This document shows positions 5,681-14,414 of a DNA stretch of 33,641 nucleotides, one piece after another (the stretch's first letter is position 1; every line of letters starts with the position of its first letter). A program made the position numbers and the translations under genes. The DNA comes from a virus: IMG/VR virus record IMGVR_UViG_3300044833_000124, positions 1 through 33,641 of that record, one strand, 5' to 3'. Under the pieces are notes generated by a model. The model saw nothing but the letters and a program-made list of their open reading frames with translations. It did not search any database and was not told the origin of the DNA.

Positions 5681-6025
5681 TTATTTCTGTAATAAAAAGT
5701 TCTGTACAAACCCGAATACTGCTAGCATTCCAGTTTGAGCGCCAAGTAATAAGCCGACGGTTTTCCAGGAATTTTCCGATACGTATCTTGTTATTTTTAC
5801 TTCATCTTGCATTATTTGTAATGACAATTGATGGAGCGCCTCTTGAAGTTTATGTTGTGTGTCATGCAGAGATCTTTTTGTTTCAGCAGTTAGAAGATCT
5901 ACTCTGTCAGATAACATTGTTAGAAACATATTAATATTTTTTATCTCATCTTTTATCGTAGGTAATTTGTCTTTTGTTTGTGGAACTGTATTATTTATAC
6001 GACTTTCCGTGTGTATACTTTTCAT
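5681..6025 (-). CDS. Tail-anchored membrane protein, DUF883/ElaB-like
   Basis: A 114-residue protein with a long heptad-like helix (KNINMFLTMLSDRVDLLTAET and on to about residue 80), then YVSENSWKTVG and a C-terminal hydrophobic segment (LLLGAQTGMLAVFGFVQNFLL). That end resembles the DUF883/ElaB/YqjD pattern in which R/SENPWK precedes a membrane anchor. It is the last gene of the leftward five-gene operon, overlapping its upstream neighbour by 4 bases. Function in the phage is unknown; a membrane-bound sensor or exclusion protein would be a guess. Confidence 0.65.
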   Translation of the reverse strand: MKSIHTESRINNTVPQTKDKLPTIKDEIKNINMFLTMLSDRVDLLTAETKRSLHDTQHKLQEALHQLSLQIMQDEVKITRYVSENSWKTVGLLLGAQTGMLAVFGFVQNFLLQK

Positions 6026-7151: not shown

Positions 7152-7166
7152 GGCTTAAGGATTATT

Positions 7167-7626: not shown

Positions 7627-8017
7627 TATAAAAGATAAAAAGAAGAAACCTGGACCTCCTCCGATGCAATTACCATCTCCCGAAACTTTGATGGAAATGG
7701 CAACTCTTGGGCTAAACAAGCAACAAATAGCTTATTCATTAGCAATGAGTTATGAGACTTTCAAGAAGAGATTAAAAGAATCACCGGCCCATGATATCGC
7801 ATATCGCAAAGGTAAAGTTTTGGGCATACAAAAAGTCGCTAATGCGCTATTTGATAATGCGATTGGTAATAATAACTTCAACGCTCAGGCATTTTATTTG
7901 AGATGCAAGGGTAAGTGGAATGATAGAGTGCAAGTGCAACATAATCATACTCATAGTAACGCACGTGACGAATCTAACTCTATAGCACAAGATTATGCTG
8001 ATGCAAAAGATAGATAA
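7601..8017 (+). CDS. terS: Terminase small subunit
   Basis: A 138-residue protein directly before and overlapping (23 bases) the terminase large subunit. It has a basic Pro-rich start (KDKKKKPGPPPMQLP), then a helix-turn-helix (LMEMATLGLNKQQIAYSLAMSYETFKKRLKES) of the type that binds packaging sites, then a helical region (AYRKGKVLGIQKVANALFDNAIGNNNFNAQAFYLRCKGKWND) that is characteristic of phage small terminases. It should form a ring that recognises pac or cos DNA and feeds it to the large subunit. The start could also be ATG 7607. The exact terminase type is not clear. Confidence 0.85.
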   Translation: MSMNTKINNIKDKKKKPGPPPMQLPSPETLMEMATLGLNKQQIAYSLAMSYETFKKRLKESPAHDIAYRKGKVLGIQKVANALFDNAIGNNNFNAQAFYLRCKGKWNDRVQVQHNHTHSNARDESNSIAQDYADAKDR

Positions 8018-9569
8018 TAATGATCTCGTACTTGACCCGATGCATGATGATGATCTAAGACGTAAGTTAATGTTTGATTTTCTTACCTTTGCTAGATTCT
8101 TCTTTAAACGTAAAACTGGTAGACAATTTCAATTATCGCAACCAGACAGTAACGAATCTCACTTTCTAACTATCGCGCGTGAGCTAGAAGATATATTCAG
8201 ACTTAAACATACACGTTTATCTATTAATGTACCGCCTGGTTGGGGTAAGAGTGAACTTTGTAAGGCATTCGTTTGCTGGGCAATGGCTCATTATCCTGAC
8301 AGTAAGTTTTTGTATATATCACACAGCTTCGAGCTTGCGACATTACACACTGCAAGTATCAAGCAAACGATGTGTTTACCACTGTATAAGAAACTATTCG
8401 GTATCGATATCAGGCGTGATTCATCAGCCAAAGATTTCTTTATGACTGTCGAAAGTGGTGCGGTTGCAGCATTCGGATCCCAAGGTGGCATCACAGGACA
8501 CGATGCCGGACTACCGGGACAAAGTAGATTCACTGGCGCAATAATCATAGATGATATTCATAAGCCAGAAGATATTCACTCTGATACTATTAGAGAGCGT
8601 GTTAAGCGTAATTACTTTGAGACGATTGAAAGAAGATTACGATCACCTAATGTGCCAATCATATTAATAGGCCAAAGATTACATGAGGATGATTTACCCG
8701 CTCACATACTAGCTGGAGCAGATGGGCAAGAATGGCGAACCGTGATTATCAAAGCATTAGACGATGTGGGAAATGCTAGATATCCAGAAGTTAATCCTAA
8801 GTCTCAGTTATTAACAATGCGTGAGAAACAACCGTATGTTTTCGCATCTCAATATCAACAAGATCCTATGCCATCCGGCGGTGCGTTATTCAAAGAATCA
8901 TGGTTCCCTAGATTAGATCAAACACCAAATATACTCACGACATTCATAACTTGCGATAGTGCAGAAACAGAGAAAGAATACAATGACGCAACAGTATTTA
9001 GCTTTTGGGGTGTATATAATGTTCGAGTCAATGATAATGTTGTGGATAACTTGTATGCTTTACACTGGATAGATTGTGTTGAGTTACGTATCGAGCCGAA
9101 AGATTTACAGGATGAATTTATAGACTTTTGGTCCCAATGCATGCGTTATCATGTTAAGCCAAAATTCGCTGCGATAGAAAAAAAATCTACAGGAGTTACA
9201 CTGACTTCTGTATTATCTGAGATACAGGGATTAAGGATAATCCCTATCGAACGAACAGGGACGATTAATAGTAAAACTAATCGGTTTCTTGAGATGCAAC
9301 AATTCATAGCTAGCAAATTAATTACATTCCCAGCTACCGGCAAGCACACAGCAATGTGTATCAAGCATATGTCTAAAATTACCGCAAATAATGTTCATCG
9401 ATTCGATGACATCGCAGATACTTGTTATGACGCGATTAAAATGGCCTTGATAGACAGGATCATTATCAATAAAGAGTTGCAGCATACGAATTATGATGTG
9501 CTAGCAAAGGGAATATTTAATAGTTATGACTCGCAAGATCGATTGCGTAAAAAGGCTTATCGGAAATAA
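7995..9569 (+). CDS. terL: Terminase large subunit (packaging ATPase and nuclease)
   Basis: A 524-residue packaging motor. Walker A is PPGWGKSE at residues 80-87, Walker B is IIIDDIHK at 183-190, and a coupling-type ILIGQRLHEDD follows at 223-233. The C-terminal RNase H-like nuclease starts at FITCDSAETEKEYNDA with its first Asp at 321; AAIEKKSTGV and RFDDIADTCYDAI supply the later acidic residues. Length is normal for the family. It overlaps the small subunit. Unusually the portal gene is not next; almost 6 kb of accessory genes lie between. It is followed at once by the first pentamer array. Confidence 0.95.
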   Translation: MLMQKIDNNDLVLDPMHDDDLRRKLMFDFLTFARFFFKRKTGRQFQLSQPDSNESHFLTIARELEDIFRLKHTRLSINVPPGWGKSELCKAFVCWAMAHYPDSKFLYISHSFELATLHTASIKQTMCLPLYKKLFGIDIRRDSSAKDFFMTVESGAVAAFGSQGGITGHDAGLPGQSRFTGAIIIDDIHKPEDIHSDTIRERVKRNYFETIERRLRSPNVPIILIGQRLHEDDLPAHILAGADGQEWRTVIIKALDDVGNARYPEVNPKSQLLTMREKQPYVFASQYQQDPMPSGGALFKESWFPRLDQTPNILTTFITCDSAETEKEYNDATVFSFWGVYNVRVNDNVVDNLYALHWIDCVELRIEPKDLQDEFIDFWSQCMRYHVKPKFAAIEKKSTGVTLTSVLSEIQGLRIIPIERTGTINSKTNRFLEMQQFIASKLITFPATGKHTAMCIKHMSKITANNVHRFDDIADTCYDAIKMALIDRIIINKELQHTNYDVLAKGIFNSYDSQDRLRKKAYRK

Positions 9570-9584
9570 AAAATTTTATATTTT

Positions 9585-9744
9585 GGTGTTGTGCTGAGGG
9601 GCCATCTACTATCCTGTATGATAATGTGAGGTCTGCTGGTGTGAGGTTTTGTGAGGAGCTGTTGTGTATTGCGCGATAATCTGCCGCCTTGTAATGCATT
9701 GTGAGCTGTGTTGGTGTGAAGATTTGTTTTGTAGTCGAAGGTAA
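9585..9744 (+). repeat. 5-base periodic array, upstream copy (32 units, KGYNN)
   Basis: The 205-base gap after the terminase is not coding. Read in steps of five from 9585, 32 consecutive units keep one register. Nineteen fit K-G-Y-N-N exactly (G/T, G, C/T, any, any), and 30 fit with at most one change in the first three bases. By chance about 1 in 16 would fit. Exact misfits start at 9595, 9605, 9610, 9620, 9635, 9655, 9675, 9680, 9685, 9705, 9710, 9720 and 9735. TGTGA occurs five times. Bases four and five vary freely. The register is unbroken by insertions or deletions. Confidence 0.8.
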
Positions 9745-9774
9745 TTTTTTAACTTTAAAAAGGATTTGAATTGA

Positions 9775-10329
9775 ATGATTTTGAATATTGAAATAAGCGG
9801 TGTAACTCCATTATTGATGAATCGTTTTAATATTTCAGAAGTTGATAAGACGGTAAAAAGAGATAAAAACTTATCACCAAGAGAAGAAGCGTCTCTTGTA
9901 TGTTATGAAGATGCCGAAGGAAGATTGTACTATCCAACCTGCAATATTTTCGCATGTATTATCGAAGCAGGTAAATTTCACAAGTCAGGAAAGTTAAAAA
10001 TAACTACAGCTAGAAGCTCGTTAATACCAGCAGGATTAATGATTGAAAAAGAATTTGTATATTTTAAAAGACCATCGACATGGGAAGTAGACAGTCGTGG
10101 TGTTGTCATACCAAGCACTGGTGGCAAGATTGTTAAAAACAGACCTAGATTAGATGATTGGTGTTTAGGTTTCAGTTTAATATTAGATACAAAAATGTTT
10201 ACACCAAAGGAAGTGAGAATGATATTAGATGATGCCGGGAGCAAAGTCGGCTTAGGTGATTTTAGACCGGCTAGAAAAGGTATATACGGCAGATTTGTTG
10301 TAACAGGTTGGGATGAAATTAAGGATTGA
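9775..10329 (+). CDS. RAMP/Cas7-like protein flanked by pentamer arrays, 184 aa
   Basis: This small protein starts with a RAMP-like strand and turn (LNIEISGVTPLLMNRF, residues 3-18). A central part follows with GRLYYPTCNIFACIIEAGKF (49-68), SSLIPAG (81-87) and VVIPSTGGKIVKNRPRLDDW (110-129). It ends in a glycine-rich loop, SKVGLGDFRPARKGIYGRFV (156-175), like the G-rich loop of Cas7/Csm3-type RNA-binding proteins. I know similar proteins as unnamed phage proteins; the RAMP assignment is my inference from this layout. An AAGGA site lies 10 bases before ATG. Periodic arrays with a 5-base unit lie 30 bases upstream and 4 bases downstream on the same strand, suggesting that the protein coats or processes that RNA. 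No Cas or effector nuclease gene adjoins. Confidence 0.65.
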   Translation: MILNIEISGVTPLLMNRFNISEVDKTVKRDKNLSPREEASLVCYEDAEGRLYYPTCNIFACIIEAGKFHKSGKLKITTARSSLIPAGLMIEKEFVYFKRPSTWEVDSRGVVIPSTGGKIVKNRPRLDDWCLGFSLILDTKMFTPKEVRMILDDAGSKVGLGDFRPARKGIYGRFVVTGWDEIKD

Positions 10330-10333
10330 GTCG

Positions 10334-10458
10334 GGCATTGTGGGGCCGGGTAATGCGTGGTCTTGTATGGTGATGTCTTGCGATTTGTTGTCTTTCTTTG
10401 TCAGGTTATGTTCTGCGATGGCAGGTGAAGTGGTGTTTGGTGGGGTGATGTAAGGCAA
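10334..10458 (+). repeat. 5-base periodic array, downstream copy (25 units, KGYNN)
   Basis: The array begins 4 bases after the stop codon of the RAMP-like gene. All 25 units stay in one register, and 21 match K-G-Y-N-N exactly; the four others (starting 10384, 10394, 10419, 10429) each differ at one of the three fixed bases. Examples are GGCAT, TGTGG, GGTAA and TGCGA. The period is not three, the frame is broken by stops, and bases four and five show no fixed pattern. The pattern ends sharply near 10458, leaving about 50 ordinary bases before the next gene. Confidence 0.85.
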
Positions 10459-10510
10459 GGATGAATTGTTAATGCAGATGGACTGATAGCTTTTCAAGTG
10501 AGGTGAAAAT

Positions 10511-11176: not shown

Positions 11177-11446
11177 ATGGAAATAATAAGACCCATCTGG
11201 AAAGACAAACTTAGAAATATAGATATCTTGATTCAATATCTCTCTGGCGTAGGTATGCCAACTATTGCAAAGAATTACTCCTTGGGAACAACCACGGTAT
11301 GGCAAATAAGCAAAATTCAGATTGAATCATTATTCAACATAAAATCACCTAGTTTTAGCTGTGTTGTTTACAGGAATAATAGTAAAGCAATTGCCCTAGC
11401 TAAGAAATATAGGGAATTCTTAATATCGCAGGGAGTTACTCGATGA
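11177..11446 (+). CDS. Small protein with helix-turn-helix-like segment, 89 aa
   Basis: The segment IDILIQYLSGVGMPTIAKNYSLGTTTVWQISKIQIESLF (residues 14-52) fits a helix-turn-helix in which G-M-P-T-I-A-x-x-Y-x-L-G-x-T-T-V is the recognition part, similar to sigma-like or transposase-like DNA-binding helices. The C-terminal part is basic. It could be a late regulator. Its stop overlaps the start of the next gene (ATGA), so these are coupled. No strong ribosome site is visible. Confidence 0.6.
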   Translation: MEIIRPIWKDKLRNIDILIQYLSGVGMPTIAKNYSLGTTTVWQISKIQIESLFNIKSPSFSCVVYRNNSKAIALAKKYREFLISQGVTR

Positions 11447-13658: not shown

Positions 13659-14414
13659 CTAAAAACCTTGTAACATATTAATTTTCAAGTAAGCAGAACT
13701 TGGTGCAGCGTTCGTGCCTAACGTTGGAGAATTAATATTAACAACTGATGAACTTGTATTAGCTAATGTTAATACATCGCCAGCCGCTAATTTCACATAC
13801 ACATCTGCGACAATCTCATTTGATTGTTGTTCAGGTGAAATGGTTTGATTAGCAAAAGTAGAACCAGGGACGAGAACACCATTTTTGAAGAGCGATAATG
13901 TCCAGACTGGTAGTGGGCTTGGGATTGGATTTAATGCACCGCAAATTCCGGTTGCAATATCATACCATCCTGCTTTGTTAACTACGATTTGACCATTAAC
14001 TGACGCATTAGATACATCAATATTAGGAGTTGCATAAATAGTATTTTCTAACAACACTAATCCACCAGCGAGATTTGTACCAGGTGATGCTGCCAATGCT
14101 TGATTTGCTTTGCTATAAACTTCTGCAAATTCAGCATTAGAGCCGAATGGAGGAGGTGGAGGTGTTGGATGTGTATCTCTGCAATTTACACAGCTTCCTG
14201 GGATACCTTGTGGACCTTGAATCCCCATTTCGCCTTGCAAACCTTGTGGACCAGACGGGCCAGCAGCACCTTGGTCACCTTTCGGTCCCATCGGGCCAAC
14301 TGCACCTGGCAAGCCTTGAATACCTTGTACACCTTGCTGACCTTGTACGCCCTGCATGGATGCTGAGCATGGGTCAGTTTTGCATTTACAATCATGATCA
14401 TAATCTTTTGACAT
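13659..14414 (-). CDS. Collagen-like phage protein with C-terminal jelly-roll-like domain, copy 1
   Basis: A 251-residue protein. The N-terminus is Cys-rich ([11 protein letters not shown]), then come 17 uninterrupted Gly-x-y triplets from about residue 22 to 73, then CVNC and a proline hinge ([10 protein letters not shown]). The C-terminal ~150 residues ([35 protein letters not shown] and so on) look like the BclA/C1q-type trimeric beta domain: [38 protein letters not shown]. It should form a rod-like homotrimer. Two such leftward genes sit together. They may be virion fibres, or exported decoys for host surfaces. Signal peptide: none. Confidence 0.85.

Follow-up and report, generated by a model that had tools for sequence, protein, structure and literature searches.

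The region at positions 9585–10473 of the window, as we call the whole stretch of 33,641 nucleotides of viral DNA analysed here, is very probably a VIPR system in which the arrays serve as the template of guide RNA; we are less confident about particulars, guide length and target among them. Two arrays of pentamers held in register flank a gene whose product has a predicted RAMP fold and is kin to a structurally solved Vipr protein, and the assignment follows from three agreeing tests, namely a profile match to that protein (PDB chain 36pp_D), the fold of an AlphaFold model and the strict occurrence of such arrays with the vipr gene. Systems of this kind were already reported in 2026, and the window adds another member with variant features.

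Briefly, VIPR, described in a 2026 preprint, pairs a phage RAMP protein, Vipr, with guide RNAs (vrRNAs) in which GGY and NN alternate; the NN pairs serve to recognise double-stranded DNA, skipping one base, transcription is blocked, and the system is aimed mostly at rival phages and satellites (PMC13142463). Binding and repression were studied mainly in phage SUSP1, whose VIPR is of type II, with RNA data also available for a Pseudomonas fulva prophage, and small-RNA sequencing of SUSP1 revealed four arrays, one upstream and three downstream, whose RNAs are bound by Vipr (PMC13142463). Each characterised vrRNA has 9–16 repeats, and seven VIPR types with differing arrays are named (PMC13142463). 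Features of VIPR also include an accessory vap gene, arrays in long intergenic stretches around vipr and an invariable 3′ tail behind the repeats. VIPR has been suggested as an ancestor of CRISPR, and experiments on its mechanism cover only two clades. The window phage and some 20 related loci form an added branch in small podovirus-like phages with a P22-type portal; the branch has scaffold letters and tails of its own as well as long arrays, and supplies natural variation on a very small programmable DNA binder.

The locus and the Vipr protein

The features of the window that bear on this assignment, together with two genes further downstream, are as follows.

7995–9569, + strand: large terminase subunit, the gene preceding the locus (phrog_38, 5.6e-78)
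9585–9734, + strand: upstream vrRNA-like array of 30 pentamers in a single register, stopping before vipr (detector score 42.9)
9735–9753, + strand: putative tail-like end of the upstream array, TCGAAGGTAATTTTTTAAC, assigned by analogy with the array ends of relatives, AAGGYAAGG and then T-rich
9775–10329, + strand: vipr, encoding a 184-aa RAMP (Cas7-like) protein with an RRM-like core and the glycine-rich loop GLGDFRPARKG
10329–10463, + strand: downstream vrRNA-like array, 27 pentamers, including 10334–10458 (detector score 60.1)
10449–10473, + strand: tail of the downstream array, TGTAAGGCAAGGATGAATTGTTAAT, matching the typical last units across arrays
11177–11446, + strand: small gene, possibly helix-turn-helix (weak NCBIfam match, 0.01, below the cut-off)
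13659–14414, − strand: product with collagen-like repeats and a C-terminal match of BclA type

The arrays were scored with a simple position model, its letter frequencies set from the window, which was run over the whole window and returned these two arrays and nothing else, mono-shuffled windows reaching scores of about 10. Both are intergenic and flank the vipr gene. Array RNA is no more structured than shuffles (z +2.15 and +0.46), as expected of an open guide. No Rfam hammerhead ribozyme, the element that separates vrRNAs in hammerhead-interspersed VIPR arrays, was found at gathering thresholds in the window or in 11 other loci, no other Rfam family matched within the arrays, and the promoter signal did not rise above that of shuffles.

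The vipr product falls in phrog_4652 (5e-21), a family itself listed without function, and has no match in Pfam, NCBIfam or PADLOC. When a profile built from 12 relatives was compared with PDB sequences, a single meaningful chain was recovered, 36pp_D, the ‘SUSP1 Vipr protein’ (1.1e-11). The AlphaFold2 model is of fair confidence (pLDDT 79.8), and its best Foldseek matches are type III Csm (Csm3/Cas7-type) and type VII CRISPR RAMP chains (1.7e-6, probability 1.00), at TM-scores of only about 0.5 and identities of 9–15%; the glycine-rich loop (G-loop) has residues that are invariant in the Vipr alignment. Vipr is thus like the RAMP subunits of Class 1 CRISPR systems in its predicted fold. Such subunits form a filament on the guide and leave bases unread at periodic positions. 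Unlike those systems, the window has a single RAMP gene in a phage, with pentamer arrays as its guides and no CRISPR repeats. Membership of CRISPR-Cas itself was considered and rejected, as a tandem repeat scan gave no CRISPR-like direct repeats at the locus and PADLOC matched neither vipr nor the six ORFs neighbouring it.

The closest characterised comparison is the VIPR system of Escherichia phage SUSP1 (NC_028808.2), where the RAMP gene is likewise flanked on both sides by same-strand pentamer arrays with fixed G-Y and variable NN, and where Vipr is 33% identical to that of the window in the alignment (G-loop GVGDWRP in SUSP1, GLGDFRP in the window). The two differ in scaffold, GGY in SUSP1 but mostly TGY in the window, and in array length, 13–16 units against 27 and 30. 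A structured tail or hairpin of the SUSP1 type is not evident in the window, whose tail is short, and a tblastn search for vap1 found no relative in the window or its relatives.

In the mechanism that we propose, both arrays would be transcribed in the direction of vipr, and Vipr, as a minimal Cas7-like RAMP, would assemble along the guide RNA, presumably with a subunit on each pentamer; it would hold the fixed TGY/GGY bases and leave the variable pair exposed. Together, the exposed NN pairs would recognise double-stranded DNA, a base being left unread between successive pairs, and the phage would thereby silence transcription of a matching gene, most probably one carried by a rival phage or by a satellite sharing the host. 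Guide binding, the one-base skip and repression are carried over by analogy from the SUSP1 and P. fulva work (PMC13142463), and we infer expression, processing, stoichiometry and target identity for the window phage.

Arrays among relatives of Vipr

Relatives were gathered from IMG/VR, phage records and one Desulfovibrio MAG. Arrays lie no more than 1.5 kb away in 35/35 loci with a Vipr relative, a count that includes overlapping fetches of one contig (about 23 loci are distinct), and in none of 62 loci without one (655 kb), among which are about 25 relatives of the terminase in the window. Applied to SUSP1, the same detector returned exactly four arrays, one upstream and three downstream of vipr. 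The initial annotation had expected relatives to keep G at the second base and C or T at the third while the last two vary, and this is the pattern that recurs in every Vipr relative: among the 1,301 units of 134 arrays, G occupies base 2 in 95% and a pyrimidine base 3 in 96%, bases 4–5 are diverse, and base 1 is G/T in 78%. The first scaffold base is T in 66% of cases in the low-GC relatives and 57% in the window, whereas SUSP1 has G (72%). Arrays of the relatives and the downstream array of the window end in AAGGYAAGG followed by a T-rich stretch, the upstream array of the window being only tail-like at its end, and the final units of an array typically read [GAT]GYAA GGYAA GG[TGA]TT.

In six relatives (L006, L040, L042, L043, L045 and L046), the last upstream tail (CTAAGGTAAGG and similar) stands a few bases before the vipr ATG. 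From its position, this tail may double as the vipr ribosome-binding site in many relatives, which would make self-regulation possible, with the guide RNA or Vipr feeding back on Vipr translation.

Vipr proteins 60–77% like that of the window occur in L007, L040, L043, L045 and L046 and in L006, L009 and L042. The portals beside those Viprs (L007, L040, L043, L045 and L046 versus L006, L009, L042 and the window) are either 69–74% or only 22–26% like the window's, and since similar Viprs thus stand beside like and unlike portals, the VIPR module seems to be mobile between phage lineages. In a separate observation, a Desulfovibrio sp. MAG from goat rumen (L039, JAFTCE010000153.1) carries at 5702–5841 a 28-unit array with a nearly perfect GGCNN scaffold beside vipr.

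In the close relatives, several arrays stand in succession, most of them of 7–19 units, whereas the window has a single array upstream of vipr (30 units) and another downstream (27 units), and no internal tail was seen on inspection of the units. Both exceed the published 9–16 repeats per vrRNA, but that range stems from the vrRNAs characterised in SUSP1 and P. fulva, and as the paper distinguishes seven types whose arrays differ, we do not take it as decisive. Such lengths prompt the question of how many of its pentamers a single guide RNA can put to use. One tentative answer, which we consider possible but doubtful, is that guides in this branch are single and very long, each reading 24 to 30 dinucleotides across a target of some 75 to 90 bp, with TGY as the scaffold and with Vipr acting alone, unaided by an accessory gene; if true, this would be a VIPR variant of longer reach than the characterised ones.

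Alternatively, the system may be decayed or inactive, its long arrays being the now unused remnants of several fused guides. The missing internal tails fit this reading, as does the lower regularity of the units, base 2 being G in 80% of those in the window against 95% in the clade, chiefly owing to the upstream array. Against it, vipr is intact and conserved (69–77% identity to close relatives), the register of the downstream array is perfect over 135 bases, and long arrays are found at other intact loci too, with 22 and 34 units in L050, 28 in L039, 25 in L055, and 20 and 18 in L048. We therefore regard decay as unlikely.

A functional role of another kind would be that the arrays act at the DNA level and give no guide RNA, either as a pac site read by the terminase or as an operator for a flanking protein. 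The gene order offers some grounds for this, as the large terminase gene precedes the locus in the window and in the relatives L006, L009 and L042, those three having the portal gene on its other side. In L044/L014 and L032, however, the locus is elsewhere, away from the terminase, with the arrays still at vipr, and in SUSP1 it is beside a DNA ligase gene; conversely, relatives of the terminase that are without vipr carry no arrays. The arrays are on the vipr strand in nearly all cases, hypervariable NN pairs are unneeded in a binding site, and those of SUSP1 are known as small RNAs bound by Vipr (PMC13142463), all of which makes a DNA-level site highly improbable beside a guide RNA template.

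Register of the downstream array and target searches

The regularity of the downstream array was first noted from the letters alone, as a fit of 21 of 25 units to KGYNN at 10334–10458 without insertion or deletion. A recount gave exactly the same figures, and the four misfits (TTTGT, TTCTT, TGGCA and AGTGG) do carry one change apiece. The interval proved right but too narrow, the register extending over all 27 units of 10329–10463. Among 5,000 dinucleotide-preserving shuffles, the KGY count in the best register had a mean of 6.6 and a maximum of 12, against the 21 observed, and the period-5 statistic reached 90, where shuffles averaged 12 and did not exceed 40; the only other periods were its multiples, 10 and 15. 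A chance period of five arising from low-complexity GT-rich sequence or codon-like bias has next to no probability and can be taken as refuted, for although the region is G- and T-rich by local base counts, no shuffle of the same dinucleotides exceeded 12/25 and the pattern is present in every relative.

Some of the accompanying estimates needed revision. With local base counts, the chance of a fit per unit comes to about 1 in 7 (0.75 × 0.38 × 0.48) and not the 1 in 10 first given, which leaves the conclusion unaffected. Bases four and five, said to look random, are variable as stated but not uniform, base 5 being A in 11 units, T in 9, G in 4 and C in 1. That repeat finders would miss the pattern was borne out, as Tandem Repeats Finder reports neither array even at a minimum score of 30; a pattern so overlooked is recognisable from sequence alone. 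The suggestion that the register is under selection, the fixed bases forming a scaffold and the information for gapped matching lying in the variable dinucleotides, coincides with the published vrRNA logic (PMC13142463) and is supported by the keeping of the register across relatives, so that the alternative of a merely young array is not needed.

The expected gapped matches to other phages did not emerge, as 122 guides searched under skip rules 0–3 against about 1 Mb of related phage DNA (both strands counted) gave no excess over shuffled guides. Of four IMG/VR scans with window patterns of 8–9 units, one had no hits and the other three had 26, 10 and 21 hits in which the remaining units match at about chance level. 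The best group of hits shared the motif SDHEGFGD, from one protein family of other phages; its extension of 0.37–0.42 was judged to be chance, and no relative of that protein is present in the related loci. As a control, a SUSP1 guide was run on IMG/VR and gave two matches with 5–6/10 further bases; as this control too was without a clear target, probably because SUSP1 targets sit in satellites in E. coli genomes and not in IMG/VR, the negative searches carry limited weight. The L039 guide, searched in 79 genomes of the genus Desulfovibrio, gave one hit with two mismatches, against two for the reversed control, and no convincing target.

When read as codon positions 1–2, the NN pairs of the window arrays yield protein-like strings, for which comparison with PHROGs, phage records and local six-frame translations gave no significant match. 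In the low-GC clade, the pairing of bases 4–5 follows the association of codon positions 1–2 (z 4.2) and not that of the other frames. This falls to z 0.9 without TA, TT and AA, being mostly a depletion of TA and an excess of TT, and is therefore only suggestive; an RNA-level avoidance of UA would account for it equally well, and the association is absent in the higher-GC group.

Neighbouring genes and other features

The product of the small gene at 11177–11446 has a weak relative (33% over 89 aa, 6e-5) at 7165–7413 of L043, directly beside VIPR arrays. It could, speculatively, be a candidate accessory (vap-like) DNA-binding protein. Elsewhere in the window, positions 1153–1249 hold a tandem repeat of about 19 bases, TTTGTAATCCTTTGTAAAA, which is unrelated to the arrays. 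The collagen-like product of 13659–14414 is probably tail fibre related, and a collagen-like ORF is present in L014 too.
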